Shown: positions 8,077 through 60,000 of the stretch, in pieces | How the letters are laid out: the number at the start of each line of letters is the position of its first letter | Position numbering within the stretch: position 1 is the stretch's first letter | Assembly (NCBI RefSeq): GCF_026151205.1 | Contig: NC_087076.1 | Span: forward strand, 250,001-310,000 | From: Bolinopsis microptera | Taxonomy: Eukaryota; Ctenophora; Tentaculata; Lobata; Bolinopsidae | Length of the DNA: 60,000 nt | Direction of reading: 5' to 3' | Notes under the pieces: generated by a model | The model's input: only the letters and a program-made list of their open reading frames with translations | The model's database searches: none | What the model was told of the DNA's origin: nothing | Program-made: the position numbers and the translations under genes

Positions 8077-9948
8077 ATGCCTGTGGACAAAATTCAACTT
8101 CAGCACAAATTTGGTATTATATCTCACAATCATCGCCAAAATCTCTTAGAGCGGATTTCTGCACCACCAACTCCTACCAATAACATAAGAAAACCCATTC
8201 CATGTGAAATTTCTCACGATTTTATCTTATCTTACAATCGGGCCGACCTTTTTGAAAGGTCGAAGTTTGATGTCAAAGCATCTCAGCTCCTTCAAAGAGT
8301 TAAACGAAGAGCTGGCCTTTTATCAGGTGGATCTGGAAGACATGTCCACATTCCACGTTCATGGGTAGAATTGACGTTGCTTGCAAGATGTAAAGGTCAT
8401 TTTCGTGACGAAGTTTTGAAAGTATTGTTTGCATCTCTGCTTACGGCACCTCCAAGCGTTGATAATATCCCCAGCTTGTTCTTAGTCTGTGAAACTGTTA
8501 TTGAATGGATCAAAGAATTGGGTAACCCTATTCCTGAGACTGCGTGGTCAAACACTCAAATACTTACATACAACATCTCCGAGCTTTGTTTTTGGAGAGT
8601 CTACAACCATGCATTGCTGCACAATTTGCAGGGGTGCGACTCATTTCTGTCAGATTTGAGTTGGCATGTTGAGAACCTCGACTTTGTACGGAAAGTATAC
8701 TCAAAGTATCCTGACGGGGAACTCTTATTGCGTCTTCTCGAATCCATTAAGACTGTGTTATCGGAAATTTACCCCAGCAAAAATGAACCGGATTGCCTTC
8801 TGAAGAAAAATTTCACCAGTGACGGTTTGATGTATGGTTTGGACTTTTATCAGAGTGTGAGGAACGGGTCAGATCCGAGTACATCACTCAGCGCCTTATT
8901 AACCACACTAACACTCTTAGGAACTGAGGACCATCTTAACACGGTTTTAACATTTAAATTGATGACGGTTGTTTGCTGTAAGAACTACCTTGCTCTACAA
9001 ATCATACAAGCAGCAGCAACCGGCAATCTCCCAATTTCTGGCTCAGATAATACTGAAAACTCTGGCATATGTAAGTCAAGTTTTCAAAGTTGGGACTGGG
9101 TCACAGCATCCGAATTTATCAGTCTTTTGGTTCACACTGCAATCGATGGGGAAACAAGTGAAATCCAGAAAAGTGCAATACAGGCTGGTGAAATGACGTC
9201 AGTCAGAGTTGACAGTGCTCCAGTGCTAGGATACGGATTGCTGGACCTCGTTGCTTTGAACACTACTGAGGCTTTTGGTCCGGCTGTTCAATACGCCCTC
9301 CAGCAAGCTTTAACTCGTCTTCATATTCATGTCAAAAAGCACTCTCTCAGAAAAAGTGCTGCTCACTTGATATGGTCAGCCCTGCAAACCACAAAAAACT
9401 GTGTCGGCCATAGAATTATTGTTGGAATTGCTCAGAATAAGATGAATTGTCTCGAATCAGTTGAATCTGAACTTGAACCCCATGGAAAATTGCTGTTTGA
9501 ACGAATTTTTGATAATCTAGCTGATCATTACATTCCGCAGAATGTACCAATTTCGTGTAATAAAACTTCAAAACAAAAGCTATTACCAAAGAAACTCCAT
9601 TGTGAACCATACGTTCAACCAACGGTATCCTTAGCCAGTAACATATCAGTGATTTCAAAACCAGGTTCAGTCGTCAAGCTAATGAACAAAGTTCGAACGA
9701 TCCCTGATCTCCATCTAGAGTCCTACACAGATCGCAACAACAAGATCCTTCAGGAGGTTGTAGCTGATCAGTGGTATAAGGAGCTGGTGGCAGTGTTCCG
9801 TGCTGCAGAGAAGGTGCAGCAAACTGTCCAGGAATGTGAGGAGCTGAGTGAAGCGGAACAAAACCGGGCTCAACAGATTGTTGAAGAACTTGAGCTTACT
9901 GAGAGTGAAGTTTGTAACGTCATGAACACTCTTGTCGTCAGACCTTAG
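8077..9948 (+). CDS. TMEM232: TMEM232-like cilium/sperm flagellum protein
   Basis: A 623-residue protein in a single coding exon. The ATG at 8077 opens MPVDKIQLQHKFGIISHNHR, which resembles the conserved N-terminus of TMEM232. The frame is open 13 codons further upstream without an ATG, so 8077 is preferred. A strongly conserved block follows at about residues 75-140 (RVKRRAGLLSGGSG, HIPRSWVELTLLARCKGHFR, then IPSLFLVCETVIEWI). The middle is helical and leucine-rich. The last 60 residues are a charged coiled coil rich in Glu and Gln. Length is close to vertebrate TMEM232 (about 650 residues). Despite the name, I see no clear membrane segment. The vertebrate protein is linked to the sperm flagellum, and four other cilium genes follow on the same strand. 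Lack of introns is notable beside its intron-rich neighbours. The family call rests on motif memory. Confidence 0.75.
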   Translation: MPVDKIQLQHKFGIISHNHRQNLLERISAPPTPTNNIRKPIPCEISHDFILSYNRADLFERSKFDVKASQLLQRVKRRAGLLSGGSGRHVHIPRSWVELTLLARCKGHFRDEVLKVLFASLLTAPPSVDNIPSLFLVCETVIEWIKELGNPIPETAWSNTQILTYNISELCFWRVYNHALLHNLQGCDSFLSDLSWHVENLDFVRKVYSKYPDGELLLRLLESIKTVLSEIYPSKNEPDCLLKKNFTSDGLMYGLDFYQSVRNGSDPSTSLSALLTTLTLLGTEDHLNTVLTFKLMTVVCCKNYLALQIIQAAATGNLPISGSDNTENSGICKSSFQSWDWVTASEFISLLVHTAIDGETSEIQKSAIQAGEMTSVRVDSAPVLGYGLLDLVALNTTEAFGPAVQYALQQALTRLHIHVKKHSLRKSAAHLIWSALQTTKNCVGHRIIVGIAQNKMNCLESVESELEPHGKLLFERIFDNLADHYIPQNVPISCNKTSKQKLLPKKLHCEPYVQPTVSLASNISVISKPGSVVKLMNKVRTIPDLHLESYTDRNNKILQEVVADQWYKELVAVFRAAEKVQQTVQECEELSEAEQNRAQQIVEELELTESEVCNVMNTLVVRP

Positions 9949-10301
9949 TAAATCACTTTCATCTTAATTGGGTTGTGTTGGATGATTTAAATTTTAGTAT
10001 TTTATGTGATGCCGAAAATTAGAGGTAAATTAACAAATTCCAAGAGTAAACTCTATCTCTTATTTAATCATAATCAGAAATCTGTTGCTTTTAATATTCT
10101 TGATTTTTGAGTTTCTTTGATGATTTTAATGATCTTCGAAAAATTAGTCGTGAATTTTACTCAAGTTGATACATTTTAAAACAAGGCACAAGCTCTTCTG
10201 GTGATCTTAAAGATATTTCTGTGATTGAATCTTGATAACTAGTTTTATTTATATTTCCAGTTGACAGACCGTTGCATCACATCTAACCCTCTATAGGTAG
10301 G
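9949..10301 (+). other. Short intergenic gap with a possible splice acceptor before CFAP299
   Basis: Only 353 bp separate the TMEM232-like stop from the CFAP299 start. A pyrimidine-rich acceptor (TTTATTTATATTTCCAG, AG at 10259-10260) lies 41 nt before the ATG, and a second candidate (CCCTCTATAG, AG at 10295-10296) lies 5 nt before it. No AATAAA was seen after the upstream stop. Confidence 0.5.
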
Positions 10302-12281
10302 ATGGACACAGCCCTTGAAGTGCCGGCAGGGGGCGACTCTTTTGCTGAATTCCCAACCTATGAGGACTTTCTTAACTCACAGGTACATATTATATATATA
10401 TAAGTTCAAATAATCTATATTTTCGGATTAAACGGGGGGAGCGGAGGGGGTTCTGGTTATCTAAACTTTTTTACACCATACATAAAAAAAGGCAAAAGTG
10501 TACTGTAACAAAGTGTAGTGTAAAATAGCCTAAAAATGCCTTAAAAGTGTAAAAAAGTGACATTTTTTCTCACCAAAGGTATGTTTTTCCTTTGGAAATG
10601 TACTACGTGAAGACTGATGGGAAAATATTAGGAAAAAAGAAGATTTTGAGAAAATAATTTGGTTAAGTGTAATTTAAGATGTAAAGAAGTGTAAGAAAGT
10701 GTAATTTAGTGTACCTTTTTTACTACACTTTTTAATACACCATACACCAAAAAAGGCAAAAGTGTAGTGTAAAAAAGTGTAGTGAACACTGAACCCCCCA
10801 CATGTAACAAAATCACTAGATGTCTATTAATGCTTTTCATACAAAGTTACAACGAATTCTTCATGTTTACAGTGATCATTAGGAAATTTGCTACCGATCT
10901 AGTTTAAATCCTATGTGCGTCCACAGTTGTTAGCAAAAAAGAAGCTAGACATTTTGAACGTCCATTTCTTAGGTCAACAACAAAACAGAGAGGATTAAAA
11001 CAGATAATGTCTACTGTTGACGGAAAATCCATTAGTCAATCAGAGATAAACAATAACTTAAAGATATCAGTTTTTCGGAAGGATTCTCGGACGTCCGGAT
11101 TTCCAGCTACTTTTAAGAGTACAAATAAAACCAACTCAAATTCATTGTTAATAACGTACATGTAGTTACTTAAAATAGACAATAATACATTTGGTGTCGA
11201 ACAAGTTTAGCACAAGTACTATAAGTTATACTTAAGTAGCCATCCAATCGAATAAGTTTTAAGGCAGTAGTAGAATATGCGAGTTGTGTCTCGGCTCTCA
11301 TGAGCTGCTCATGCTCTGAGAATCGAATTTTCGTTTAAAATACAGGGATCTAAACTTACAGAGTAATTAGTGTCAAAGAGTTAAAATAAATGGGACTTTT
11401 TTCGTTAATTCTGCCAAAATTTCCGGACGTCCAGATTTTCAGAAACCACCCCCCCCCCTCCCCTTGTCCGGATTTGTCCGAAATTCAAAAACCACCCCTC
11501 CCTATTGCCGGACGTCCTAAGTAGATGGCCCCTAACCGGATCGGCACTAACGCCTTAAAATTGTATATTTAAGGAATAAGGATATTAACAATAAATAATT
11601 ATATTTCACCAAATTTCTGTAAAGTTGATATTGTTATTACTAAATTTCCAGATTACCTCCATGGATTTGTATTATCTGGAGGACGAAGAACTAGCTCGTC
11701 AACTTGTTGAACTAGGATACCGGGGAAGTGGTGAAGTTCTGAAGCGGGAGGAATTCGAAGCACGCAAACAGCTAGCTGAGGCAAGCAGGCTCTCGAAACG
11801 GAGCCAAAAGAAAACCCTAGCGAGTGCTAATAAAAATCTTGAGAATTATCCTTTCTTGGAAGCTTTAGCACAAAGAGAGGAAGCCAACAAAACAGGAAAG
11901 ATGACGTCTATTATTTTTATCAGAGATAAGAACGCTAAAGGTCAAGAGATATCAGGGTATATTGACTTTGCTCATCGCCTAAAAACAGAGGATTTCGAGC
12001 CGTACTTCACAGGAAAGAAAAGAGTCCTCCCAAAACTTACCGACCTCAGTTTTTACAACTGGGAAACCCAAAAGAGTACATCAAATGCGACTCCCAACTA
12101 TCAAGTCATCGCTGATAACGCCTCAGGGCTTCTCTTCAAAAACAAGAGAGATAGAAAGATCGTCAATGTTGATCCTAAAGCTGCCCGGCCTGGTGACAAC
12201 TCATCTCGGGTTCCTATAGATAGTCAGGGACAATATATTCAGGTTGTTATCTACGATCATATCACCCGACGGAAAACGTGA
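10302..12281 (+). CDS. CFAP299: CFAP299 (cilia- and flagella-associated protein 299)
   Basis: Two exons, 10302-10382 (27 codons, phase 0) and 11652-12281, give a 236-residue protein; human CFAP299 is about the same length. Exon 1 ends [11 protein letters not shown] before a GTACAT donor, and exon 2 starts [20 protein letters not shown] after a TAAATTTCCAG acceptor. Conserved blocks are [75 protein letters not shown] and the C-terminal DHITRRKT. The family is nearly invariant among ciliated animals and is associated with flagellum assembly in sperm; its exact biochemical role is not known. The gene sits 353 bp after the TMEM232-like gene on the same strand. Confidence 0.96.
10383..11651 (+). 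other. CFAP299 intron with repeat relics
   Basis: Near 10470-10800 the motif AAAGTGTAGTGTAAAA recurs in several degenerate copies, flanked by G-rich (10433-10452) and C-rich (10795) ends. Near 11085-11110 and 11420-11520 GGACGTCCGGA-like blocks recur next to C-runs, suggesting an eroded foldback element. No coding sequence was seen. Confidence 0.6.
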
Positions 12282-13048
12282 AGTGTTTCTATTCAATTCT
12301 TTATCGGTTTTATGAGACCTTATTGGCATGAATTCCTTGTCTTTACCGTCATGAAATGTACACTTGCTAACCAATGAAATGGTTTGAGCTGCAAGATGGC
12401 TCTTGGTCAAAGTTTTAAAAATATTTATGCTGGCCGATTCATCTGTAATTCGTTGTAATAATTGTGATACGAAAGAAATTTTTATATTTTAATGATTTGA
12501 TTGTCTTGTAAAAATTCATTTATTATCATGGTAGGAATATTCTAGTTGGTTCGTGCATTGATTTTTCGGGAAAGGAGGAGTGTGTTCAGATTATTTCGTG
12601 CTTTTTCTTATGCGCGGCACCCATCTGTATACATGCTAGAAAGAAATTCGACTGCTTGGAAGTATTCCAGAACAGTTGCTTGTACTGTGAACAGTATTCA
12701 CTGTGCACTCGTCACTGTGCACTCGTCACTGTTTGCTGTTTGCTGTTCACTGTTTGCTGTTCACTGTACACTTACAGCACGTAAAAACATCCGTTAGAAT
12801 AGTCGAATAGTCGAGAGAATATCAAAACACACCTTCAACTCTATGTCTTTCAAATGCAGTTTCTTCTTTAACTCTTGGTTTGAAGTACCCTGTACTTGCT
12901 ATTCCATTCCAGGTGTAGCTTAAAACATGTTTGCTGAGATATTTCGTGCCAAAGTTTGAGTTTTACCTGTAATTACATGTACAACTTAAACTTAAATAGG
13001 TTTTCCTCTTTAAGGTTTTCCTCTTTAAGTTTCCTCCTCAGGCTATTA
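12282..13048. other. Intergenic sequence, CFAP299 to CFAP119
   Basis: A small cluster of imperfect GTTCACTGTTTGCT-like repeats lies at 12690-12770. A small duplication (TTTTCCTCTTTAAG, twice) lies near 13002-13029. No gene was supported. Confidence 0.5.
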
Positions 13049-13220
13049 GGGGTTGTTCAAATATTACGTAATCAGCTGAGGGGGGGGGGGGGAGGTTTCC
13101 AAATGATTACTCTAGTGTAATTTTATTTTTGACACAAAAGCAATGTGTAAACTGATTATGGAGGGGGGGGGGGGGGGTAAAAATGTTCCAAAAATGATAA
13201 CGTAATATGTGAACGACCCC
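13049..13220. mobile_element. Harbinger-type MITE with TTA duplication
   Basis: A 172-bp foldback: the left end GGGGTTGTTCAAATATTACG pairs with the right end CGTAATATGTGAACGACCCC. TTA flanks both ends (13046-13048 and 13221-13223), the three-base target duplication typical of PIF/Harbinger elements. Two G-runs (13079-13092, 13162-13177) lie inside. It is too short to encode a transposase. Confidence 0.8.
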
Positions 13221-13474
13221 TTACCCAAAATCCTTATGTACAGAATTTTGATATTTTTCTTTGTCCTTGAGATATGAGGTTAACTTGAAATTTTGATGCG
13301 GTTTTTTCGTACCTTTTCATCTCGAGCAGCTCTATTGCATAATGTTGAGGCTAACTAAATGATCCCACTGACCTTCAGCTAAATATTGCGAGCACAAAAC
13401 ATGTTTTAAGCTACCCCAGTACCCCTTTTGATCCGCCCAACTTGTTCCAGTAGAGCTCACAGAACGTTATCAAT

Positions 13475-13642
13475 TATCATGTCTCCAGTTGTACCGCTTT
13501 GAGTTCCTGGCAATAGTGCAGAGAGCCATAATTAGCTTGATGTTGTACTCCCTCTCTCTAATTATCATGTCTCCAGTTGTACCGCTTTGAGTTCCTGGCA
13601 ATAGTGCAGAGAGCCATAATTAGCTTGTACTCCCTCTCTCTA
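13475..13642. repeat. Tandem duplication of about 83 bp upstream of CFAP119
   Basis: A segment starting AATTATCATGTCTCCAGTTG and ending in TACTCCCTCTCTCT occurs twice (about 13475-13557 and 13558-13642). The second copy lacks a few bases (ATGTTG). It lies 110-280 bp before the CFAP119 start, so it may overlap the promoter or leader. Confidence 0.85.
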
Positions 13643-13752
13643 AGAGTGTCATGCACGAACCAACTATAATGATGAAACATTTTTTTGAAAATATCTTTGT
13701 TGCTAAAATCATCAAATCAACAGTAAATACCCCTAATTTTAATCTTAGCAAA

Positions 13753-16525
13753 ATGGGGGATAGTAAAAGACCACGATCCAAGACACAACGAAGTCCGAGT
13801 TCGAATAGTCTGAAAGCAGAGAGACAGAGGTCACAGAGCAAGGCTGAACCTCAAACACCAGACGTCGAGCCAGAGCCAGAAGCGATCGAGAATGTTCTTC
13901 CCTGGGAAATCTTCAACAAAGACCAGATCACGTTAGTTATGCAGGGAGAATTAATAAGTCTATAGATTGACACATGTGTGATCTTATGTATTAGAGGGGA
14001 GGGGGTCGAGGTCTTCATGAAAATTCTCTCGAAATTGAGTTTAAAGTTATATCTGATACCGGAGTGATATGTGTTTTTGGGTGATTGCTCAAAAAATGTG
14101 GAAGACGGATTTTTTCAGTTTTTCCAGAGCTACTAGACGAAAATCTAGTAGAGAAAACTGCATCAAAATTCGACCTTGCGTTCCTGAGATATTATGCGCT
14201 AAAGTTTGAGGTTTATTTTTAATTACTAGTTAGGGTAAGAATAAGAATTCTGTGAATGAATTTGTCTATAATTATGACCATCCTGCTCGAAATTGATTTT
14301 ATAGTTGTTTCTGATAGAGGGGAGTTATATCTATCTGTTGCTTTTGGTCGCATGGAAAAATATTGATTCTACCCGAAGTTATTGCCGGTCAAAGGTCAGC
14401 GCTCATGAGTAATTGTATTGCGCGAGCTATTTTCAATCGCGCGCCCTGAAAATCGAGTCTAAAAATCTATTGAAACTTTCAGGATGTGTTCTAAGGACCA
14501 TTTAGAAGATTCTGGTCTATCAGAATTTTAAGATCTAAGGCATTAGGAAATTTGTTATTAAATTTTGAAAATCTTGGACCTGGAAAAATCGTCAAAAAAC
14601 GAGGTCCAAGATTTTCAAAATTGAATAAAAGTTTCTAAGGCCTATCTTAAAATTCTGATCGCTCGAGCAATACAATTACCAATCGAACCAATTTATCCAT
14701 AGACACAGTGTTTCGTCCTATTAGGACTCATCAGTATGGCTATATATATATATATATATATATACAAACATGCAAATTGAAACGACCGGTTGAGTCAGAC
14801 AAATGTTTCAATCATGATACAAAACCATGATATCATCTGAGACAACTGAGGTAACTAAAATTAAAATTACAAAGCTAAAAGTTTACATAAATATTCACTC
14901 GTGAAACAATATATAATTACTAGGGTTTAGATAGATTGAGGAAGATGATTGTTAAATCACTTTAAAAGACATCGTACGTCTGCCATAATATGACAACTGT
15001 GGTCCTTTGCCACCCACTATCGAGGTCTCATTGACTTCCAAAATCGAGTTATGACATTTAAGGTTGGGGCGTATAGGCGCCTGGAAAACATTAGTTTTCC
15101 ATCAGTTTCAGTCTAACCACTTTTTGGCATGGTTTCTGGAACTATGGACAGCACATTCCCACAGAGAAACATTTGTTACGAATTTATTCACAAAAAGTCC
15201 CATAACTATACTGTAACTATACTGTAAATACCTGTAAAAATACTATACTTGTAAAACTGAAACTTAACATTTGTCTTCTGAACTATTGGAAAAGACTAGC
15301 CACTCCCAGGACCTGAAACTTGGCACAGCTGATATTCCTTTGGCGAATACCAAAAATCAATATGTTACAGAATTTTACCTTTTTTCTTGTAACATGAGGT
15401 TGAATTTACCCAAATTCATCGAAAATTACACTTTTTTAGAAAGTTAACTTCATAGTTCATAAACAGAGGCGAAATTTCAAAGTCTGTTTCAAAAGTTGAG
15501 GTTAATCTGATTTTCAGGAGAGCAAATTTCAATTTAAGTTTGACTTGTAATTACAGGTAAACCTCAAACTTTGGCGCGCAAGGAATGCAAGGTCGGATTT
15601 TTATGCGGTTTTTTCCTATTTGTACAATGTACATCTCCGGCATGAGCAGCTCTGTCACATATATAATATATATAATGTGAAAACTGAAAACATATGCTAA
15701 CAAACGAATCGATGGAAATTCGTGGGTAAATAATGATTGTTTAATTTAATAACCTAACATAACATTTCCAACAGGGAGTTGTTGTCGTGCACACCAACTG
15801 AGATGCTCTCTAAACTTAACACCCTCATACCATCCCCAAACACCCACGTTAACTTAAAGAATAGTATCAAAGCAGACCTATACCTCTTAGTCTTACATTT
15901 TGCTCAACAGCAGCATTTCTTAGAGGACCAAGCAGGGGCTATCGTTACACTCTATCAACATATCCTAAACATGGTTCTTGAGGGTAAGGAGCTGATGGCT
16001 CTTGTTCTAGAAACTTCCCTGCTGTTAACATGCCAGAAGGAGTTCACACCAGGCATGAAGTTTAATTTTTTCAACCCAGACCAAGTCAGCAAGATATCAA
16101 AATACTTCTCAATGGGAGTTTTCCAACATTTCAAACTGTACCGCTTTAGTATGCTTCAAGAACAAGATCAAAATATCATTAGTCTGGAGAAAATTGTCCA
16201 CACCTGTCCACCACAAGGGTCCTTCGATCCACCCCCACTTGCAGAAGCTATATCGGAACACGATATTGAGTCGTATCTGAACGCTTCCCCTCCAGAATCA
16301 CCTCGCTCAGAGGAGGAGGTAGCGGGTGAGGAGGGTGAGCTGGGAACTGAAGAGCAGGTCGAACAACCTAACCCTCTTATCTCAATGGCTAACGTTCAGA
16401 CTGTTCTCGATACAGTTGGCAACGACATAATGGACAAGTTTACAAAAGACATGAAGAATAAGTGTACCGAGAAGGAAAATCAGTATGTGAACAGGTTGAA
16501 CAAGGTCAAGAAGGCTCTAGATTGA
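13753..16525 (+). CDS. CFAP119: CFAP119/CCDC189-like protein (flagellar C1a-32 family)
   Basis: Two exons, 13753-13931 and 15775-16525, give 309 residues. The donor is GTTAGT at 13932 and the acceptor is TTTCCAACAG at 15774. The split codon joins DQI-T-ELLSCTPTEM exactly in frame. Residues 1-45 are a basic, Ser-rich, disordered tail. PWEIFNKDQIT follows, then a helical domain at about residues 60-180 containing ADLYLLVLHFAQQQHFLEDQ, FNFFNPDQVSKISKYF and FQHFKLYRF. This matches the family of flagellar central-apparatus C1a subunit C1a-32. An acidic linker (about 220-250) and a C-terminal coiled coil (MDKFTKDMKNK...RLNKVKKALD) complete it. The family is needed for central-pair function and sperm motility. 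Assignment rests on the FFxPxQ and HFKLY motifs and on length (vertebrate about 320 residues). Confidence 0.75.
13932..15774 (+). other. CFAP119 intron holding foldback relics
   Basis: Position 13995-14060 (GGGGGTCGAGGTCTTCATG) and 14300-14470 match the TTAA element complete at 37294-37921. A hairpin whose arms read ACCTGGAAAAATC and CGAGGTCCAAGATTTTC lies at about 14555-14625. A (TA)n run lies at 14741-14763. From 15180 to 15670 there are blocks shared with the second TTAA family (CAGCTCTGTCACAT, TTTGGAAAAGACTAGCCAC-like, AACCTCAAACTTTGGCGCGC). No coding sequence was seen. Confidence 0.75.
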
Positions 16526-16645
16526 AGATTTTATATTTGACTGTAGCTGTCGTTGATTCGATTTGGGTCGTTGATTTCGCTGTGGGTCTAAGGAGTTTAA
16601 AAAAGAGTGAGGCATTTTCCCAACTCCCAAAATATGTACTTCAAC

Positions 16646-16651
16646 AATAAA
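16646..16651 (+). promoter_or_regulatory. Polyadenylation signal of CFAP119
   Basis: AATAAA lies 121 nt after the CFAP119 stop in a run reading TCAACAATAAAAATGTGGGG; it is the first canonical signal downstream and at a typical distance. Confidence 0.6.
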
Positions 16652-16929
16652 AATGTGGGGAATGCGTTTGCTTGACATGTTACGAATTATGGTAAATTAT
16701 GAGAAACGAGGGAAATATTTTCTGGTTCAGTACTATTCTGAACATTCTGAGAATTACGAATTTTATGAAATCAGATTTCAATTTGAGAATTTCCTGTGAA
16801 AATGTGATCTTTACGTATGGTTTAACTTTTGATATGTGTTACTTTTATTGTTTTAGCCCTTTTGGGCGACCGACAACTGAACCTAGTTCCCACACAGTTA
16901 ATACTAATAGGGCACCCAAATCCCAATCA

Positions 16930-17300
16930 GATTAAGGGGCCTTAACGAACAAAATATTGTTCCTGGTCGAAGTTATCGCTGGTCAAAGGTCAGCGCTTAC
17001 AATGTGTTATTGTATTGCGTGAGCGAACTTTGATCGCTTGTACGAAATCGAGTCTTAAAATCTATGTTATTCTACATTCTTTAAGCAATCACCCTGAAAC
17101 TTTCAGGATATGTTCTGAAAATCATTTAGACGAGATTCTGTAGGCTAAATTTTGAGACAATTACGAAACATCGTCAAAAAACCAGGTTTTAGAAACCTGT
17201 TCAACTGTTATGTTAAGTAATTTCAAGTGAAAATTGGGTTCAGTTGTCGTTTCAAAGATAACTAGATAGACTGATTCAGATTGGGGTTATAATTATTTTT
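16930..17300. repeat. Partial copy of the TTAA-type foldback family
   Basis: Shares AACAAAATATTGTTCCTGGTCG, TCGCTGGTCAAAGGTCAGCG, TGTATTGCGTGAGCG and AATCACCCTGAAACTTTCAG-like blocks with 37294-37921. Only one arm is present and no terminus with TTAA can be fixed. Confidence 0.75.
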
Positions 17301-17440
17301 CCTATAATCGTTTCAAAACAATTGTGATAGATACGTTTTTAATCCAAATCCATTTGCATTACTTAACATCCCATCCTCACTATTTCAAAAGTTTTACTTA
17401 TTCTTTATTAGATTTTATAGCATGATAGAGGCCAGAGAGA

Positions 17441-20400
17441 ATGGTTGAGACGGCTTCTTTACCGGAACTAAAACTCCGGCCAGAATTCCGGGCAGATGCA
17501 GAGGTCAAGTTCATGAACACCCTTGTCAAGCCAAAAAAGGTAAGATGCTATTAGATTTTTTTCTTTTTTCCTTATTTTGCTGCTCTACTGATAAATCATC
17601 ATTATGCGCTTAGTCAATAAAGACACCGTGGTTGTTATAAAAAGGAGATGATGAAGTATTCAGGAACATAGGCATGACACAAAGAAAAATGGTCGGTGGG
17701 GATTGGGACCCACTTAATCAGTAATCCATCCTGTCACTCAAATTATTTGTTATATAGTAGTGTTGAAAGTATTAAAACATCATTATGATTTATCAGTGGA
17801 GCAGCAAAATAAGTAAAATATCTTTTGCAAGGTTTTTTAAGGGTTCAGCCTGAAATTTTTGTGAAACTTGATTCTGACTGTATAGCACTAGCATGAGCAG
17901 TTGACCAACTAACTAGGACATGTGACCAAACTTTTGAGGGGGTCCCGGACCCCAACCGCCCACCGGTGCCTGCGGTGCAGCCGTGCCCATATTTGTGCCC
18001 AAATAGGCCAAATCACCTTAACATGCCCAAAACCCAGATTTGTTTCTCCCTGAACACGTATATGGATTTTCATCCAGATTGGACAAAAAATGACTGAGTT
18101 ATGAGCCAAAAACCATAGGCCCATATTTGGGTATAGGCACCAAATTTGATTGATTTTGGCCCATAAATTGAAAAATTGGTCAAATATCAATATTTTTGAA
18201 TGAAACCAACTTTATATGAAAGGTAAGCCCAAACTTACATTCTCTGAGATAATATTATATAGCTTAATATTTATATAAATGTGGAAACTAAGGCCACTAA
18301 GACCACTAAAAATGGAGAAAACTGCCCATATATGCAGGCCAAATACATGCGGCACGTGTATTTTAAGGGGGCAGGGGGGGTCTTTATGAAATTTCTCTCG
18401 AAATTGATTTTATAGTTGTTTCTAATAGAGGGGAGTGATATCTATCTGCTACTTTTGGTCCCATGGAAAAATATTGTTCCTAGCCGAAATTATTGCCGGT
18501 CAAAGGTCAGTGCTCATGTGTAATTGTATTGCGCGAGCGATTTTCAATCGTGCGCCCTGAAAATCGAGTCTAAAAATCTAAACATTCAAAATGTTTACTA
18601 ATACATCATTTTATTTCAAAGAAAATTCGCCGAATGACCTTACATGCCTTGACAAGTGACCGAATGTAAACAAAATTAGGGACACCGAAACACCAGTTGA
18701 CCAGTAAACTGGTCATAGCAATTACATCGGGCCCTATATGCACCTATAAGTGACGCGATGCTGCAACCGAGGCATGCTAAGTTTATATCATTGGACTAAT
18801 AAGGTTACAGCCTAAAATATGAATATAATAACAATGTACCATAATTATAAACACAATTTATAAGCATAATATAATGATTATGAAGTTAACTGAGCTTTTA
18901 GTGAACGGAAATCTAGCGTCCACCACAACGAAAAAAACGGGCGCAATTCTTGATGAGTTAGGCCTTTAAAAAATTAACCCAGGCCTAACTCAAAAATCTG
19001 GGGCAAAAGATAAGGCCCTGAGACTTACTTACTTTGGATACTTTGGAGAGATTCGTAGATTCCTCTACTGGGTCATCGAAAAGTTCGACCGCCCTTGCAG
19101 CATCGCTGCTGCCTTATTCATACTCCAGTCCAGCAAAGAATTTCCATTAGGGCAGCTGTAATTGCTCACAGGTGGGTTATCTGGAAACGGTTTAAGAAAT
19201 GCTGATAGTTTTGCTTTGAACAGCAGTGGGTCTTCAATGAGGTGAAGATCTGATGGAATGGTGTTCCATAAACGTGGCCCCATTACTGCAAATGAACCAT
19301 CATACAATGACTGTTGACGTTGAGTACTGCTCTTGCTGAGACTTGGAATGGTGGCCTTGATTCCGTGTCTTGATGGAGTAGAAAAAAGAATCCCAAGGTC
19401 ATTTGGGCAGCGTTGATGTAAGATTTTCCACATGTGGATGATAACATAACGCTCTCTCCTCCTTTGCATCGACATTAGATTTAGTGCTTTGAGCCGCTGC
19501 CAATAGTCAAGATGTTGAACACCCCAAATCCTTGAGGTGAAAGTACGCTGTACTCCTTCAATCTGTTGGATGTCTGAGATTTTACTGGTATTCCACAGAG
19601 GGCAGCAGTACTCTAAATGACTTCGGATAAGTGACTTGTAAAGTGTCAACATTGTTATTCTATTTCTGCACTTGAACGCACTGAGCACCCAGGCTGCCAC
19701 TTTTCTAGCTCGAGATGCCATAGAACTGACATGATGTGACCACGACATATCAGAAGACACTATAACTCCAAGATCCTTAACTTGGTCTGTAGGATAGAGC
19801 ATATTACCGCCTGACACCTTGTATGTTTGTGTTTGACATACAAAAGGCAGCTCATACAGACTCTCATTAGGATTCCCCCGGTGAACTAGGAGCTCAAACT
19901 TATCCTCATGTAAAACCATGTTATTACGTTTGGCCCATGCAATGACATGGTCGAGATCTTGCTGAAGAACGATAACATCCTGTTCTGTATATATGTGCTT
20001 CAGTATACGGGTGTCATCAGCAAAGAATCTTATAATTGAACCAGTAACACAAAGCTTCATGTCATTTATGAAGAGCTTAAAAAGGAGGGGTCCAAGAACG
20101 GTTCCTTGGGGGACTCCACTGATAACCAAGGCTGCGAAGGAAGACACCCCGTTCAGAACAACATGTTGATGACGGTCCGACAGAAACGACTCCAGCCACT
20201 TAAGAATCCTTCCGTTAAATCCATACTTTTGCAATTTATCAATGAGAAGACGATGATCCACCTTGTCGAAGGCCTTCGCAAAGTCTAGATATATTGCATC
20301 AGTATCTGACCCACTCAAAAGGCCACTCATAATGTCGTCGAAGTGGCTAAGAAGCTGAGTCAAACAGCTCCTTCCCGAACGAAATCCATGTTGATTATCA

Positions 20401-23400
20401 CACAAAATTTCATTTTCATCTAAGTACTTGACCATGGTGCTCCGTAGAATGCGCTCATAGATCTTGATGATGTGTGAGGTGAGGGCAACGGGACGGTAGT
20501 TCACTGCATGTGCCCGGTTTCCCTTTTTGTAGAGAGGAGAAATGTGTGTCTCCTTATAGAATTTGGGTACAAGACCCAGGGTGTATGATTCCGTCCAGAT
20601 AAGTTTAATGGGTTGGCACAGTTCTTGAGCACATGTCTTGAGAAGACAAACTGGCACTCCATCTGGTCCACAACCCGAATCGGGTGAGATTGCAGAAATA
20701 GCCGATATGATGTCTTCATCAGAAATAACAAAATCTTCGTCAGTTAGTGGTTGCGTTATATCTGCTGCCATGAACTGGGGATCTTGAACATCGGGACAAT
20801 CTGGATCACTGAAAACAGAGCTAAATTGCTCTTGTAGAAGATCTGCCATTGACTTAGGATCAGTGATTATTTCATCACGTTTGTTGAACAGCATGCTAAT
20901 TGAAGATTTGATTTTTGATAAGGACTTGGCATAACTATAAAAGACGATTTCAAACATAACCTAAAAATTTCATAGGAAAATTTTGAAAAATGAAAATTCC
21001 TGAGGCGAAATTGTCTTATACACATAAATTCACTACATGTGTCACGTAAAAATTGAGCTTACTGTATAATTATACATTAAAATACACGTGCCGCGTGTAT
21101 TTGGCCTGCATTATATGGACAGTTTTCTTCATTTTTAGTGGTCTTTTAGCCTTAGTTTCCACATTTCTATAAATATCAAGCTATTATATATCTCAGAGAA
21201 TGTAAGTTTGGGCTTACCTTTCATATAAAGTTGGTTTCATTAAAAAATATTATTCAAATTTGGTGCGTATACCTATTTTTTTTTATTTGAAAATTCAATT
21301 AATCATTATATATATAAATCAAGCGTTACATTTCAGCCATGCAAAAATACAATGACATATTTTGATATACTAAATGGTAAATGGTACTGCAATATAAGTT
21401 GCTTAATGTTTGGCCGGATGACAACTAACGAGAAAAATAAACTTGATTATATAATAATTAATTCGGCTGAACCAACACATAGCAAGAGCCACATTAACGT
21501 TGGGGCCGTCTAAACGTTGGGGCCGTCTATGGGCATATGTTTTTTGACTCAGTCATTTTTGTCTAATCTGGATGAAAATCTATACCTTACTCGGGAATAT
21601 TATAACCGGGATAAAGTGGTGGGTTTTGGAAGATTCCGCCATATTTTTCCCGGTCAAAAATTTTACCAGTCATAAAAACTCAGATTATGGGGTTCCAAGG
21701 GGGTGGTGATCATCATATTTTACCTGAAGTCTCATATGTGCTAGAGAAGACTTTTGAAGCAGTGGATGGAGGGCTGTAACTTTATTGGCGGTTGCTACCA
21801 TAATTTCGGTATAAAAATCACAATTTGGTTATAGAAATTTGGTTATAGATTTGGTTATAGAAATCAGATTTCAGGCCAACTTGTGGCCACATCCCGCTAG
21901 AAGTGAGTAAACTGTGCCACTATTTCATGGTCCACGGTGGATTGATTCAGATTACTGGAGCAGTTGAAGATGCAAAGCCAAGACGTTCCCCAATACCATT
22001 ACCAAGCGGTGGGCAGGAAATTAAGCTCCGGCTGACCTTCAGAGCAGTAGCCCCATTAGCGGACAAAATGAAAGTCTTGTTAAGACAACAATACAACTTC
22101 GAATTTGACGATCAGCAGCAGGGGGATATCAATAATGATAATGGAGGGGACATTAGCGATAATGAGAATGAGAATACGCTTTAATGAAGATTTGACTTAT
22201 TATTGCTTAGATTTATTTTCCTTTAAATAGACGTGTCTTTTTTTTCTATTTCTGAGTAATATCAATAACTGTAAATTGAAATAACTTCTTTAACAAGTAA
22301 CAAAAACAGAAATTTCGGTTGAAAATTTGTTGACCTCTGAAAAAAAACTTGAAAGGTCGGCCACCGGTAAATACATGACCGGGATAATTTGGCGGGTTTT
22401 GGGAAAGTCCGCCATATTTTTCCCGGTCATTAATTTTCCCAGTCATAAATTAACCCGCTATAATATTCCCGAGTAAGGTATACGAGTTCAAGGGACCACT
22501 AGCTACAGGTAGAACACCTAAAATCTGGGTTTTGGGCATGTTAAGGTGATTTGGGACAAATATGGGTGCAGCTGCACCGCAGGCACCGGTGGGCGTTTGG
22601 GGTCCGGGACCCCCTCAAAAATTTGGTCACAGGTCCTAGTTTGTTGGTCAACTGCTATGTCGGAATAAAAGTTTTTAATAGAGACTAACAAGTTACTAAG
22701 TTACGATACTTTTGCAGTTGATAACTTAACAATATTTGTATTTGCCTAGGTGACATCAGTTAGATCAGGGAAGATACCGCTCGTGAAAACAACAGAGAAG
22801 ACTGAAGGCTGGCCAGCTGGTAATCCCACTGCTATAAAACATGCACTTGACAGTGGTCATTATGAAATGGCAGAAGATGAACCCTTTTACGCCAGCAAGG
22901 TGAATCACAGTGCTGGCAAGCACGACCGTCAGCCTTTAAAGTTTATACTCCCTCGCTATTTTAAGACTACGAATACTAGTAGAACTGGAACTTCAAGAAA
23001 ATTCTCTCGAAATTCTAAAGCCTGACTACATGTGCACATTATGCAGTTAGGTTGCGTCTCATTTTTCAATGAAAGTTACAGATAACAAACACTACACTAC
23101 AAAATTCAAAATCATAGACTCAGACTGATCAACCAAAAGATGAACGCAATTGTGGCAATCTAGTAATATAAGCTATCATTCCAGGAGGTTGAACGTTTGG
23201 AGGATAACCTGTACCTCGTAACTGGACAAGGTAAAGAGACAAAGAAGAGTGACATAATTGAGCGTATAACAGAGAGTAGAAGACAACGGCATAAGAATGC
23301 TCTGGAAGACTTACACGAGGAACTGGGCCATTTGAATAAAGCTGTCGAACCTCAGGTCAGCCTTGAAAGAGCTGATTTCAGCCTTAATCCGATTGTAACT

Positions 23401-26400
23401 TAGTTATCTTTTGTTCAATCAATTATTCGAATTCCTTTTGAGAGGTTCTTGTAGGTATTAATTTAAAATTCCAGACAAAACATTATAACTCGATACCTTT
23501 AAAAATTACCAAAAAATATATATTAAGGCCTGAGGAGGGTAAAGTTAAACACATATTTTTCAGTTTTCACATAATGTGACAGAGCTGCTGGAGACGAACA
23601 AGAAGAAAAACCTGTATCAAACTCCGACCTTGCGTTCCTGAGATATTGCTCGCCAAAGTTTGAGGTTTACTTGTTATAAATAGTGAAACTTAAACCTAAA
23701 ATTGCTCTCCTAAACATAGGGTAAACCTCAACTTTTGGAAAAGACTGGCCACACCCAGGACCTGCGACTTTGCACAAGTGTTCCTTCGGCTATTTCCCAA
23801 AAAACTTATGTAACAGAATTTTGAATTTTGCCTTTTGCCTTTTTCCTTGAAATATGAGGCTAACTTTCTAAAAAAGTGTAATTTTTAATGAAATTGGGTT
23901 ATAGTTAACCTCATATATCAAGAACAAAGGCAAAATTCAAAATTCTGTTATATGAGTTATTTAAGTATTCATCCGAGGAACACCCTATGTTCAGGAGAGC
24001 AATATTAAGTCTAAGTTTTACTAATAGTAAACCTCAAACTTTGACGCACAATATCTCACAAGCTCAAGGTCGGATTTTTATGCAATTTTGTGTACTTGTT
24101 TATCTCCAGCAGCTATGTCATACATGTGAAAACTTCGCCTTATTACGCAAAAACATTTTGAGCGCTCCTCGAATTGTTTCGAAAATGCGAATGCTAAACA
24201 AATTCACGAGGTACCAAAATATATGTGTTTACCGACGTGTCCAACCCAAGAAAAATGTAGCTTTGTTATTATCAGGTAGCGAACGAACTAGACAGTACTA
24301 AAGAACAGATAAGTTGGATACTATCAGAGATACATATCCTGTTTTCTGGGATAGAAAACGACAATATTCTCTTCACATATCCTCTAAAAAGACTCCAAGT
24401 CCTGTGGGAAGACGTCGTTACTCTCCTCCAAAAACGTAGCAACAAAATCACAGATCTTAGAGAGCAACTTAACGAAACAGAGTCCCAGAGAAAGGACCAA
24501 ATATCAGAACTTTTCAAGCACTACAGCGCTTCGTTCCACGATATCGCGTATTTGAATACGGGCGCAATCAACTTACTGATGGACCTGGAAGTCTACACAT
24601 CCAACCAACTGCTACTAACAAACTACAAACACTACTCCAACATGATTTCTCAGATACAGCTGGAGAACGTGGTCAGGTTAAGACAGTACAGGGTGCGATG
24701 GGAAGAGAGGTTAGCCACCTGGCGAGACCTCCATACTCACCAAACCACTGATAAATTCACTACCTTCATGTACACTCCCGCCATCACTGATTGTCCGGAT
24801 ATTGAGTCAATATCAGAGATGATGAAGTGCGAGCTTAACGGATTGGTAGAACGGAGGTTTAACAAGCTGCAAAGTGTCAGAGAGATGAAACCTCCCTCGT
24901 TTACTTGTAAAACAGTGTTGCGCTGGTATGAAGAGGTGTGTGAGCTTAGCCTCACCTTGGAAAACACGCACCGGAAATACGTTGCTAAGCTAGCTGCTGT
25001 GGGAGACAAAGTTTTGCTAGATTGTGAAACAGTTGCTGACAGAATGTTGGAAACGCTTCAAGAAGAGGGAGTTTGTTCTGATTCTGAAGCTCAAGATCTA
25101 AAGTTTTCTGATCTGATGCCGCTGATCGCTGTGTGGGGCACAAAACACAGAGAGAAGATTCTTCGGTTGGAGGAAAAGTTTTCAGATGAAGCTGCAAAGT
25201 TCAAATCAAACCTTCATTTGCTCTATGACTTCCAAAACGGTGCCGCTAATATTTGGACCGAGTATTGCTCGAGAGTGACTGATAAGAATAGCGAACTATC
25301 AGCCTTGGTGAGGAAATGTCGACGAAAACACGACGAAATCAATCAACGGTTAGAGAGCTCTTTAGACATGGAGATGGACAGAATGAGACAGGACACCAAT
25401 GATTTTGAGTTGAAGAAACATCTGGATAAAGCGACAGAAGCTCTGGAGGAGATTGCTGCTGCTTACACCAATTTCAAACGAGATATGGCCGATGTTATCA
25501 AGACATATCCTGATATGATCTCAAATGAGCTACTCAACTATTCGATGCAGATAAGGAAACATTTAAGTTGCTACACGGAAGAAGATACCAAAGTGGAAGA
25601 TGGAGAGGAAGGACTAGGATCTGACAATGCTTCCATCGGTGGAATTGTCGATCAAGCTCCACACGAGTCGACTGAGAAGGGTGGAGTTGATATCGCGTTC
25701 ATGACAGAAGTCTCGGCGGCAGCACCTCAACAACCACCGTCATACTCTGATGAAAGGTTCAAAGTATTAGAAGAGGGCCTGACTATTGTCTACTTGGAGC
25801 ATCTTGACCTACTAACTCACGAGGTCGCTCAACATTCTGATCAAACCGTAGGGGAGAAGTTGAGTGAGCTGAAAAGCGAAGTTGAACTGCGACATCACAT
25901 CCACAAACCCAGGGTCACTAGAATGAAGTTGGACATTTACAACGTGAGACTGAACGAACTGAAGAACCACGATGAAAGAGTTAAGCAACATGGAGCAGGA
26001 ATTACGCTGGAAATAAGCACCTTGAGAAGCGAGTTCAAGAAGCTCGGCATGGAGCATGATGTGAAGGGAAAGAAATTTAAACAACTTGTGGAGGATTGTG
26101 AAAAGACGCTTCCCACTCTTGAGAAAACTGCTCATTTACAGACCTTACAAAATAAAGTTACTACTGCGTATGAAGGCCATATGAATGTGATAAAGTTGGA
26201 GCTGTCGTCTTTCAGAAATAAAATGGAGATGAAACTAAACGATTTGAGGGAGAGTAACCAGCACTTTGGTTTGGCTTTCAAACCCTTCGCTGAAGGTGGC
26301 AATTTTGGACCGGACGAAATCGAAACGTTCCGGAAGAAACTTGAGAAATGTAACCTCAAGATTGACAACTGTGAAACGTTTATTCTTACCGAACTTGATG

Positions 26401-29138
26401 GAATGGAGTCCAAATGTCTCGATGCCGCAGTTGAGATGACAAGCAGCTTTGAAGCGAGACTGAAGATGCACATTCTCGACGTGGCATTCCTGGAGAAAGT
26501 GAACAGCTGGATGTCAAATTGTCAGGTGAAGATCAAGACGGAGGTTGCCGCCTGCAATATGATGTCCAAGAAGTTGAAAACAAAGATAGAAAGTCTAAGA
26601 AAACTGATCGACAGCTGTGCCAGACCTCATCCTGACAAACCGACTGTAAAACCGGAAGAAGTACTTTCTGCGATTCCCGATATGTACAACTTGTTCCAGC
26701 AGAGAATCATGTATCTAGACTGTGCTAAACCTGCTACTAAAACATCTGTTCAGATAAATCCAGATCACCCTGATTTTCAAATGTCTCGAGAGTCTACGCA
26801 CGATTTCCAAAGTGTCGTTAACCTGACTAAGAATATCCTCACGATGTCCAGAAAATACAGCTCTCCTTCGATGGACTCTGAGTCAGTAACCATTGACAAG
26901 AGAAAACCTATCGTAACGGAGTCTCTTTATCAGTGGTTTATAGCGAAACAGGAAAATCCGAAACCAATGTCCAAACGAGGCAAAAGTCGGGTTGAGACAT
27001 CAGAGCGGACCAAAAGACTCGGCTCTGCCTCTTCTCGATCATCCATGATGTCTGTGGTTCTGACAGACGCGCAGTCATTCATGCCTATTATCAAGAAGAT
27101 TCTCCAGGAGACCCAGGGAGCGCTGTTTATTTCTAGCGAAGCGTACTACACGCAGTACCAAGGTCCTCCCCTTAGAACGGGTATTGCTGAGACTCTGGAG
27201 GGGTGCATGGAGGAGCTAAACAAGCGGTTGAATAATTACTACGTCCAAACTCAGGAGTTTTACAACAAGTGTATTCAGGATCTGAGGAGCATACTGACTG
27301 ATGTCCTTCAGTTGCACATGGAGATTCCACCGCTACTTTACGACGAAATACTGGAGAAATATGTCACTGAGGTATCCCAGAAGACGTCTGTCATAAAACA
27401 TCAGTTTGACCAAAACAGAGCAAAAATAGCTGATCTACGAGAGACCAATAAAGTTCAGTTGAAACCTATTTTAGGACATCCAAATAGAGAAATAGATATG
27501 AATAATCTGTGTAGAAGAGAGGAAGGTAGGGCTTTGGAATCGGGCGATGTTCTTTATGAGTACTACAACGAACTGACCAACACTGAACGTTCCATCGCAC
27601 AAAATTTCATAGAGTCTATAAATTATTGCACAGAGCGGCTCATGAACCTGTTTGACCAGCTGATAACAACAGATGATGTCATCCTTGGAACAGTTGCTGA
27701 AGAGAAGCTGCCTACCACGGTTCTCCTGAAACGGGAGCTTAGAGCCAAGCAGGGCGACCAGACCTCTTTGCCAGGTCTCAGTAGAGAAGGACAACAGATA
27801 AAACTTTTAAGATTAGCCGACATAGCGGTGGATCGAACAGCTTCCTCTAAATCTGAAAACTTTAAAACGGGCAAGTTTACTCCGGTGCACGAGGAAGCGC
27901 TTAGTTCAATGAACAGAGTTTGTGGTGAGTATAAGGAGCGTTTTGGGCTGGTTATGGAGGAAATTGAATCTTTGTCCGCAAAGTGGACTTCCAGCGAAGA
28001 AAAGTGGAAGAGACAGTGGCTGTCTTCCGTTCAACACGTACGTAACTTGTATAAACCTAACAACATTTCTTAGTCTCCTGTTATTCGAGCCCGTTATTTG
28101 AGCTACATCGGTAGAAGTTTGTGTTTTCTGACGTGTTTTTGGTCAAAAAGACTAGGGTTCAGGGAAAAAATCTTCTATTTACATGAAGCAGCTTTAGATT
28201 TAACATGGTAGGTACTAGGTTTTCTTTATTTAGATACTGCGTGGGATGGACCGTCTTCTTTCTTTAGTTCAGGGTTTTTCGCTAAGATGAGAAGTACGGG
28301 GGATAAATTTACGTATCCGTACGCTAAATTGTAAAGTGCCACGTACTTTTCGCTCAAAATTCTATACAATTTTTTTTTGTAATATGAAATTGTCAAGTGT
28401 CGACGCGATAGTTTGAAATTTTGAAGGTAATTAATAGTTTTCCGGTAATAATTAGGTGAGAATCAATATTCAAGGTAATAAAAAAATTAGGATAGAATAA
28501 TTTAAGTCCGTTTTTGAAAAGATCGACGTTCATACTATACTAAGTCGTATGTTACATATATGTATATCTATTATATGTATTATTGTATATATATATAGAT
28601 ATTCAAGACTCATACACAGGTTTTACACACATTTTTTGGACTGTACCTACTTTTCAATACAAATTTAAAAGTACGTATGAAATATCGTATGATATCGTCG
28701 AATTTAGAAGTGTGTCTACTCCGTACTTCTCATCTTAGGTTTGTTGATATAGGTAATTTGAATTCAGATATTTAATTGCGGACAGAGGGTGGTTTTTCAG
28801 TTTCAGATCGTTTTCTACTGATTCCATATTTAACACAAACTGTAATTTATTATTAAGTTTTTTCGCTTTTTGAAATGCTAGGGTCGCTGCTTTTATAACT
28901 TATTCACAGACATAAATTACCAAGAATTTGGCGAAATTGTGCATACATAAATTTAAAATCCAATGTTGATTTTTCGTTTATCTGAATTGTTTGTTTTTTT
29001 TTTCAGAGTGATCAGTACTGCATCCAATTCATCGAATTCTTTCAAAGATTCCACAACGATCCGGATCACTCATCTCGCCAAACCATAAATCACAGATTTT
29101 CTCTTTATCCTGGCTTCAGCGATTTTATGAGACACTAG
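17441..29138 (+). CDS. CCDC180: CCDC180-like coiled-coil cilium protein
   Basis: Five exons fit: 17441-17539 (33 codons), 22750-22899 (50), 23185-23355 (57), 24276-28037 (1254) and 29007-29138 (43 plus stop), all phase 0, giving about 1437 residues. Alternatively exon 4 reads through the GTACGT donor to a stop at 28073, giving 1405 residues. Exon 3 carries a KKSDIIERITESRRQRHKNA-type block that matches CCDC180. Exon 4 is mostly heptad coiled coil: NLLMDLEVYTSNQLLLTNYK and WREDLHTHQ-like regions (DUF4455-like), an acidic break near residue 500, then YYTQYQGPPLRTGIAETLEG and PLLYDEILEKYVTEVSQKT near residues 1090-1190 (DUF4456-like). Vertebrate CCDC180 is about 1650-1700 residues with the same two domains, so some length is missing or lineage-specific. 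The family is ciliary; its mechanism is unclear. The start is the first ATG after a TTTTATAG acceptor. The huge intron 1 (5.2 kb) is full of transposons. Confidence 0.82.
17880..18365. repeat. Left arm of a large inverted repeat in CCDC180 intron 1
   Basis: Runs from AGCAGTTGACCAACTAAC through GGGGGTCCCGGACCCC and CACCGGTGCCTGCGGTGCAG to AAATACATGCGGCACGTGTA. The right arm is its inverse at about 21060-22660, interrupted by two further insertions (21277-21531 and 21593-22476). Between the arms lie a TTAA-family copy and the LINE. Part of the same sequence is found alone at 41458-41800. Confidence 0.85.
18366..18585 (+). mobile_element. Copy of the TTAA-type foldback family
   Basis: GGGGGCAGGGGGGGTCTTTATG, GATATCTATCTGCTACTTTTGG, GAAATTATTGCCGGTCAAAGG and GCGCCCTGAAAATCGAGTC follow in the same order as in the complete element at 37294-37921. 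Preceded by TTTTAAGG. Only one arm is present. Confidence 0.8.
18586..19019. other. Unassigned intronic sequence
   Basis: AT-rich, no reading frame or clear repeat; near 18940-19000 a short inverted pair (GATGAGTTAGGCCTTTAAAA / TTAACCCAGGCCTAACTC) is visible. Confidence 0.4.
19065..20957 (-). CDS. CR1/Jockey-like LINE reverse transcriptase, 5'-truncated
   Basis: An intact 630-codon frame lies in the antisense direction in CCDC180 intron 1. It begins mid-protein at FYSYAKSLSKIKSS, a region that in full elements lies between the endonuclease and the RT, so the APE endonuclease is missing. RT motifs in order: VNYRPVALTSHIIKIYERIL, GFRSGRSCLTQLLSHF, motif A YLDFAKAFDKVDH, motif B GVPQGTVLGPLLFKLFIND and motif C FFADDTRIL with both Asp. 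The C-terminal domain carries SHLEYCCPLWN and MQRRRERYVIIHMWKILH and is complete. Beyond the stop the 3' UTR is very short and ends in a (TAAG)n-like tail (near 19025-19040 on the + strand). An uninterrupted frame implies recent insertion. The 3' tail recurs at 31674-31750. Confidence 0.92.
   Translation of the reverse strand: MFEIVFYSYAKSLSKIKSSISMLFNKRDEIITDPKSMADLLQEQFSSVFSDPDCPDVQDPQFMAADITQPLTDEDFVISDEDIISAISAISPDSGCGPDGVPVCLLKTCAQELCQPIKLIWTESYTLGLVPKFYKETHISPLYKKGNRAHAVNYRPVALTSHIIKIYERILRSTMVKYLDENEILCDNQHGFRSGRSCLTQLLSHFDDIMSGLLSGSDTDAIYLDFAKAFDKVDHRLLIDKLQKYGFNGRILKWLESFLSDRHQHVVLNGVSSFAALVISGVPQGTVLGPLLFKLFINDMKLCVTGSIIRFFADDTRILKHIYTEQDVIVLQQDLDHVIAWAKRNNMVLHEDKFELLVHRGNPNESLYELPFVCQTQTYKVSGGNMLYPTDQVKDLGVIVSSDMSWSHHVSSMASRARKVAAWVLSAFKCRNRITMLTLYKSLIRSHLEYCCPLWNTSKISDIQQIEGVQRTFTSRIWGVQHLDYWQRLKALNLMSMQRRRERYVIIHMWKILHQRCPNDLGILFSTPSRHGIKATIPSLSKSSTQRQQSLYDGSFAVMGPRLWNTIPSDLHLIEDPLLFKAKLSAFLKPFPDNPPVSNYSCPNGNSLLDWSMNKAAAMLQGRSNFSMTQ
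21277..21531 (-). repeat. About 255-bp dispersed repeat, second copy at 40308-40560
   Basis: Shares, inverted, the blocks GCCACATTAACGTTGGG, TTAATTCGGCTGAACCAACA, GTAACGCTTGATT(reverse) and AATTCAATTAAT with 40308-40560. Here it splits the right arm of the large inverted repeat, just after a short repeated GTTGGGGCCGTCTA. Confidence 0.75.
21593..22476. mobile_element. Nested foldback element with CTTACTCGGG ends
   Basis: The left end CCTTACTCGGGAATATTATA pairs with the right end TATAATATTCCCGAGTAAGG. Flanks read TATA on both sides, so TA or TATA is the target. A second inverted block (TCCGCCATATTTTTCCCGGTC, near 21630 and 22400) follows on each side. It sits inside the right arm of the 17.9-22.7 kb inverted repeat and contains a coding-like fragment at 21903-22184. 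Confidence 0.8.
21903..22184 (+). CDS. Unrecognised coding-like fragment inside a foldback element
   Basis: A 93-codon open frame starts at GTG and has no ATG before residue 9. It reads with ordinary amino-acid use: HGGLIQITGAVEDAKPRRSP, IPLPSGGQEIKLRLTFRAVA, then PLADKMKVLLRQQYNFEFDD, followed by an Asn/Asp/Glu-rich tail. I do not recognise the family. Position inside terminal inverted repeats suggests a remnant or C-terminal exon of the element's own protein, or a captured host exon: ATCCCGCTAG just upstream could be a splice acceptor. It is unlikely to be a CCDC180 exon, since it ends in a stop. Confidence 0.4.
   Translation: MSKLCHYFMVHGGLIQITGAVEDAKPRRSPIPLPSGGQEIKLRLTFRAVAPLADKMKVLLRQQYNFEFDDQQQGDINNDNGGDISDNENENTL
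23527..24130. mobile_element. TTAA-type foldback family B copy in CCDC180 intron 3
   Basis: TTAA (23523-23526) is followed by GGCCTGAGGAGGGTAAAGTT and TTCACATAATGTGACAGAGC; the inverse, TATCTCCAGCAGCTATGTCA then CATGTGAAAAC, appears near 24098-24132. Interior blocks (AACCTCATATATCAAGAAC, TTTTGGAAAAGACTGGCCAC) recur at 15300, 39340 and 53050. The right terminal TTAA is eroded. The element ends about 145 bp before exon 4. Confidence 0.75.
28074..29006 (+). other. CCDC180 last intron or 3' region
   Basis: AT-rich. AGATGAGAAGTACGG (28285) and its inverse CCGTACTTCTCATCT (28720) bound about 450 bp with inner inverted similarity (TACGTAC-like, ATATCGTATGATATCG), so a degraded foldback element is likely. 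A strong acceptor (poly-T then CAG, 29006) ends the stretch and supports a final exon at 29007. Confidence 0.55.
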
Positions 29139-29216
29139 AAAATGATTTAAGCATAACCAGAAAATTTATATTTGAAATAATTTATCAAGTTGTTAAGTCA
29201 TTTTAGCATTACATGT

Positions 29217-29315: not shown

Positions 29316-60000
<30,685 letters not shown>

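Follow-up and report, generated by a model that had tools for sequence, protein, structure and literature searches.

The window, that is, the whole stretch of DNA analyzed here, covers 60,000 nucleotides of the Bolinopsis microptera genome (C5:250001-310000; positions given without a contig are those of the window). Orthologues of TMEM232, CFAP299, CFAP119, CCDC180 and EFCAB6 follow one another, in this order, on its + strand:

8077-9948, plus: TMEM232 orthologue (Pfam PF15877, E 4.1e-31)
9949-10301, plus: gap between TMEM232 and CFAP299, 353 nt from stop to ATG (read in the sequence)
10302-10382, plus: CFAP299 coding exon 1, 27 codons, with donor CAG/GTACAT, the slash marking the exon/intron boundary (read in the sequence)
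11652-12281, plus: second coding exon of CFAP299, matching DUF4464 (Pfam PF14713, 4.7e-87)
15803-16525, plus: CFAP119 orthologue, CLAMP domain in one open frame (Pfam PF14769, 2.3e-14)
19068-20960, minus: reverse-transcriptase open reading frame of a retroelement in the CFAP119-CCDC180 gap (Pfam RVT_1, 3.8e-28)
23185-23355, plus: CCDC180 5' exon with the start of DUF4455 (Pfam E 0.001, below cut-off; splice sites)
24276-28073, plus: last exon of CCDC180, carrying DUF4455 and DUF4456 in 1265 codons (Pfam, PDB)
31075-60000, plus, running beyond the window: EFCAB6 orthologue, many small exons (EF-hand matches, exon candidates, PDB)

The earlier note had claimed a consecutive run of five co-oriented cilium/flagellum genes on the + strand, and all five identities were upheld. 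Judged by Pfam and by sequence comparison with the PDB, they are firm, TMEM232 being assigned on Pfam alone. Its PF15877 match reached 108.9 bits against a cut-off of 27, over profile positions 4-189 of 452, and no PDB match was found; its whole coding sequence is apparently one open frame of 623 codons from the inferred start. In CFAP299, the PF14713 match covers profile positions 13-230 of 230, and the PDB CFAP299 chains matched at 1.4e-92. The gene starts at 10302, in a first exon that had been overlooked, and the acceptor of exon 2 lies at 11651, in frame ahead of ITSMDLYYL. As looked for in CFAP119 / C1a-32, a CLAMP domain scored 54 bits against a cut-off of 22.7, and the PDB returned FAP119 (5.5e-6) and mouse CFAP119 (0.0019). 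The start codon of CFAP119 is inferred and further 5' coding exons may exist; the mouse chain has ~86 N-terminal residues more than the open frame found here. CCDC180 carries DUF4455 then DUF4456, the order expected of CCDC180 / FAP76 (PF14643, 4.5e-71; PF14644, 1.8e-41), and matched CCDC180 (5.9e-102) and FAP76 (5.5e-18) in the PDB. Its 5' exon, covering DUF4455 profile positions 2-36, gave no CCDC180 match when this piece alone was compared with the PDB, and additional 5' exons are likely. As for EFCAB6, the first exon with EF-hand support begins at 31903, the outermost exon bounds are provisional, and EF-hand matches continue past 60000 in the right flank. A 1137-aa model, whose exon pieces were joined by eye, matched a PDB EFCAB6 chain in four stretches at 2.2e-76, the best non-EFCAB6 protein being CFAP115 at 1.9e-13. 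The PDB entries with the matched EFCAB6 and CFAP299 chains are axonemal. In the central apparatus of mouse sperm, CFAP119 has been placed in C1a/C1e, and CCDC180 has been found to run along C1 (PMC12297659); defective sperm flagella are described in Tmem232 knockout mice (PMC11549365). By these assignments, five genes that are unrelated to one another, yet all serve motile cilia or the sperm tail, do adjoin on one strand.

Besides one reverse-transcriptase element and repeats, nothing was found between the five genes. The absence of intervening host genes and the ciliary nature of the families, also asserted earlier, were both borne out: no other host family was found there among the Pfam matches of further open reading frames (ORFs) of the window. 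These numbered 180 (at least 52 aa on the + strand and at least 62 aa on the - strand) after ORFs mostly within tandem repeats or known exons had been dropped. Scanning 172 of them against Pfam at E <= 0.05, an ORF-based search that genes built of small exons only could escape, yielded EF-hands, the 5' exon of CCDC180 and a reverse-transcriptase match of low score; the other weak matches we read as chance. The remaining repeats and elements were as follows, four of the six long arrays lying within the EFCAB6 span:

1166-2635: weak reverse-transcriptase match upstream of TMEM232 (Pfam)
4871-5929: minisatellite/microsatellite array, unit 36 bases
30538-30843: minisatellite/microsatellite array, unit 6 bases
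35117-35399: minisatellite/microsatellite array, unit 15 bases
35829-36324: minisatellite/microsatellite array, unit 15 bases
44195-44511: minisatellite/microsatellite array, unit 23 bases
58172-58459: minisatellite/microsatellite array, unit 2 bases

The flanks were scanned as ORFs of at least 72 aa on the left (C5:185-250 kb; 123 ORFs) and at least 66 aa on the right (C5:310-360 kb), with longer ORFs scanned beyond; such scans could miss genes of small exons. The nearest host gene found on the left is a non-ciliary gene of the 5'-nucleotidase family, on the minus strand near C5:249 kb (matches in 4 of 115 left-flank ORFs, one at C5:248892-249284, minus). Further left lie retroelements and a PP2A B56 gene. 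On the right, the nearest host gene found is ARPC2, also non-ciliary (C5:323003-316912, minus, six tblastn pieces), with P34-Arc in 3 of 101 right-flank ORFs; the same flank holds 7tm and VWD matches. A coiled-coil-like exon on the plus strand ~26 kb left of TMEM232 (C5:232240-232503) matched DUF4618 weakly (E 0.0011, 19 bits against a cut-off of 34.9) and could belong to another gene linked to cilia.

In four of the five genes, a single 3' exon carries the coding sequence entirely or for the most part; EFCAB6 has many exons. The coding sequence of CFAP299 is split over two exons, that of CCDC180 over a 3.8-kb terminal exon and one or more 5' exons, and that of CFAP119 fills one frame as far as recognisable. 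Intron paucity as a mark of this cluster alone was rejected, since CCT and PP2A B56 genes share the pattern and EFCAB6 does not. Elsewhere, several dynein heavy-chain genes and some CCT genes show the same pattern, and a PP2A B56 gene shares it:

C1:6093721-6104829, minus: dynein heavy-chain gene, single open frame of 3703 codons (read in the DNA)
C3:8952096-8962166, plus: dynein heavy-chain gene, single open frame of 3357 codons (read in the DNA)
C5:15573254, C3:16432880 and C3:12732292-12733942: CCT chaperonin genes, domain in one or two open frames, paralogues elsewhere split into many
C5:190956-192362, minus: PP2A B56 regulatory subunit (PPP2R5), open frame of 469 codons that contains the Pfam domain in full

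Within the 3703-codon frame, 2093 codons match 11 dynein-type families, and smaller ORFs upstream look like candidate 5' exons. At 6 of the 17 dynein D6 loci, the open frame reaches 1600 codons or more. A single frame holds the domain at two CCT loci; at a third, a small 5' exon precedes a long frame, and the others are split. In contrast, the 679-residue motor is broken up at all 11 myosin loci (our grouping; 65 of 94 candidates scored), with 279 residues as the longest piece, although some myosin matches lie in open frames as long as 1218 codons. Introns can be lost through reverse-transcribed mRNA. The long 3' exons look like 3'-biased intron loss, and loss by that route fits because introns are kept at the 5' end. 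It does not explain the gene clustering. Retrogene origin was rejected as well: TMEM232, CFAP299 and CFAP119 each gave a single match genome-wide (264,652,675 bases, 232 contigs), with no intron-bearing parent copy elsewhere, and introns persist at the 5' end of CFAP299 and CCDC180. The very long 3' exons seen in genes for ciliary motors bear on how introns are lost; we did not find them described in the available portions of the literature on ctenophore intron loss and Mnemiopsis exons.

The spacing of the five genes is uneven. TMEM232 and CFAP299 are separated by 353 nt, and the other gaps measure ~3.5 kb (CFAP299-CFAP119), up to 6.7 kb (from CFAP119 to the most upstream CCDC180 exon identified, retroelement inside) and ~3 kb (CCDC180-EFCAB6). 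Within the short gap, position 10025 may serve as a 5' splice site, and a strong 3' splice site ends at 10260, 312 nt past the TMEM232 stop and 41 nt ahead of the CFAP299 ATG. Using a matrix of 14 cis acceptors of the window, picked from exon context and themselves scoring 9.2-16.2, this acceptor scored 14.42, a value reached by a fraction of 0.0004 of 5000 random ATG contexts from a 260-kb region. Acceptor-like sites near the ATG of TMEM232, CFAP119, PPP2R5, ARPC2 and a CCT gene were not above random (matched by 0.11 to 0.66 of random ATGs). Since only CFAP299 stands out among the six scored, three of them from the cluster, 5' splice acceptors were rejected as a mark of the cluster genes, and cluster-wide trans-splicing is unsupported.

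In at least one ctenophore, 56% of full-length reads are reported to carry a trans-spliced leader (PMC8527503). Searching the genome for the spliced-leader motif AATTTGAGGTAAG gave 106 matches, most of them arranged in arrays; the reversed control gave 11. This search (100 places listed) revealed tandem arrays of AATTTGAG followed by a GTAAG donor:

C3:13.511-13.551 Mb: spliced-leader RNA gene array, spacing ~591 bases
C5:21.342-21.352 Mb: spliced-leader RNA gene array, spacing ~857 bases
C13:12.78-12.95 Mb: spliced-leader RNA gene array, spacing ~860-890 bases or more

In the copies read, six in number, a splice donor sits behind the leader. Compared ungapped with the Hormiphora spliced leader, four of the six copies were identical at 34 of 44 positions and two at 24 or 25. 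In four of the six, the leader ends in CAGTTTTAATACTTTCAACACTACTATATAACAAATAATTTGAG, directly followed by GTAAG; its 5' end is provisional. Two other queries had been discarded, namely the last 22 nt of the Hormiphora leader, which at up to 3 mismatches matched 22 times where the control matched 24 times, and a variant of it (4 against 8), and it was the shorter motif with the donor that worked.

Because spliced-leader arrays exist in the genome, trans-splicing at 10260 is plausible. The plain alternative is the cis donor at 10025 (GAG/GTAAAT, boundary at the slash), which would give an ordinary 5' UTR intron. Whether splicing is trans or cis, the TMEM232 and CFAP299 transcription units nearly touch, and the two genes may be co-transcribed. 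A missing polyadenylation signal was rejected as operon evidence, since CFAP299 also has none of the listed signals within 800 nt. Of the shared transcription proposed in the earlier note, what stands is a plausible case for TMEM232-CFAP299 alone, with its 353 nt and strong acceptor. The part concerning the whole run found no support: one gap in four has the close spacing expected of a spliced-leader operon, and the three of ~3 to 6.7 kb are not operon-like. Shared control, raised in the same note, fared no better on the sole motif tried. The RFX X-box pattern was found 10 times in the window against 6.4 expected, and 13 of 100 shuffles reached 10; a shared X-box across the cluster was therefore rejected. 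That all five genes are transcribed or controlled as one unit is unsupported, nothing of the kind having been seen.

The run looks unlikely by chance. Under random gene order, the expected number of co-oriented five-gene runs is 3.6e-6 to 3.5e-4, a rough, after-the-fact figure that assumes 18,000 genes with 2-5% ciliary. It overstates the surprise, because the ciliary class was picked after seeing the run and many genomes were scanned. We consider the run modestly surprising and probably a lineage-specific neighbourhood.

The account that we favour, with about an even chance of being right, is that gene-order shuffling within the ctenophore lineage would have brought the five axoneme or sperm-flagellum genes together. 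Most of them would keep their own transcription start, and the TMEM232 and CFAP299 units would abut or overlap, the CFAP299 mRNA probably arising by splicing at 10260, where either the trans-spliced leader would be joined or a short 5' exon located within the 3' end of TMEM232. The sequence shows the identities, order, strand and spacing of the genes, the acceptor and, elsewhere in the genome, the leader arrays; we infer the recent assembly of the run, the separate promoters and the co-transcription of the pair. Non-ciliary genes on the opposite strand were found on both sides of the run, in keeping with this account. The strong acceptor 312 nt past the TMEM232 stop, the leader arrays and the scatter of the dynein genes (below) count in its favour too. 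It is also supported by gene order being unconserved between two ctenophore families, since the chromosomes of Bolinopsis and Hormiphora correspond one to one and gene order does not, as stated in PMC10232365. The low random-order expectation leaves room for selection, and the unremarkable acceptors of the other five genes scored, like the possible cis donor at 10025, also weigh against the account.

Pure coincidence, every gene being transcribed independently, the close pair included, and the cluster having no functional meaning, is a possible reading, to our mind a rather unlikely one. It fits the kilobase gaps everywhere except one, the retroelement between CFAP119 and CCDC180, and the lack of X-box enrichment. 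It also fits the scatter of the dyneins: the 21 matches to dynein heavy-chain D6 form, by our grouping, 17 loci spread over 10 of the 13 chromosomes, and just two of these loci lie less than 0.4 Mb apart, so this family is not clustered. Moreover, with many windows and genomes scanned, rare runs are expected to turn up. The low random-order expectation and the strong acceptor 312 nt past the TMEM232 stop speak against it.

Giant cilia drive the locomotion of ctenophores. That TMEM232 and CFAP299 form a bicistronic operon resolved by the spliced leader, the nucleus of a ciliary neighbourhood, is unlikely in our judgement. If true, no operon would have been reported from ctenophores before it, so far as the literature found goes: PMC7986045 (2021) states that operons were unreported in this group. 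The same statement weighs against an improbable alternative, namely a five-gene co-regulated domain, be it a shared chromatin domain or loop or an old operon spread by transposon insertions, kept by selection for ciliated cells. All five genes are co-oriented between opposite-strand neighbours, and repeats that recur across the window sit in the gaps, as such a domain would have it; yet the X-box is not enriched and EFCAB6 by itself spans ~29 kb or more. Linkage of ciliary genes conserved from the animal ancestor is highly improbable, as gene order already differs between Bolinopsis and Hormiphora and the human orthologues lie on five different chromosomes.

Three known systems bear comparison with this neighbourhood and its tight pair. 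Retrogenes resemble it in that coding sequence here lies mostly in one exon, but the 5' introns kept in CFAP299 and CCDC180 and the lack of a second copy for the three genes searched set it apart. Spliced-leader-resolved operons occur in nematodes and tunicates. The likeness lies in the spliced-leader arrays and in one short-spaced pair with an acceptor before its second gene; the difference lies in the other gaps, which are in kilobases, and in operons being said to be unreported in ctenophores (PMC7986045, as above). This tight ciliary pair with a strong acceptor between its genes nonetheless offers a concrete locus for seeking a ctenophore operon. Finally, the local clusters of co-expressed non-homologous genes in Drosophila (PMC3129673), for which the title of that paper states no evidence for gene order conservation, differ in that the shared class here is cilium structure. 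They resemble the present run in what defines it, unrelated genes of like function lying side by side.
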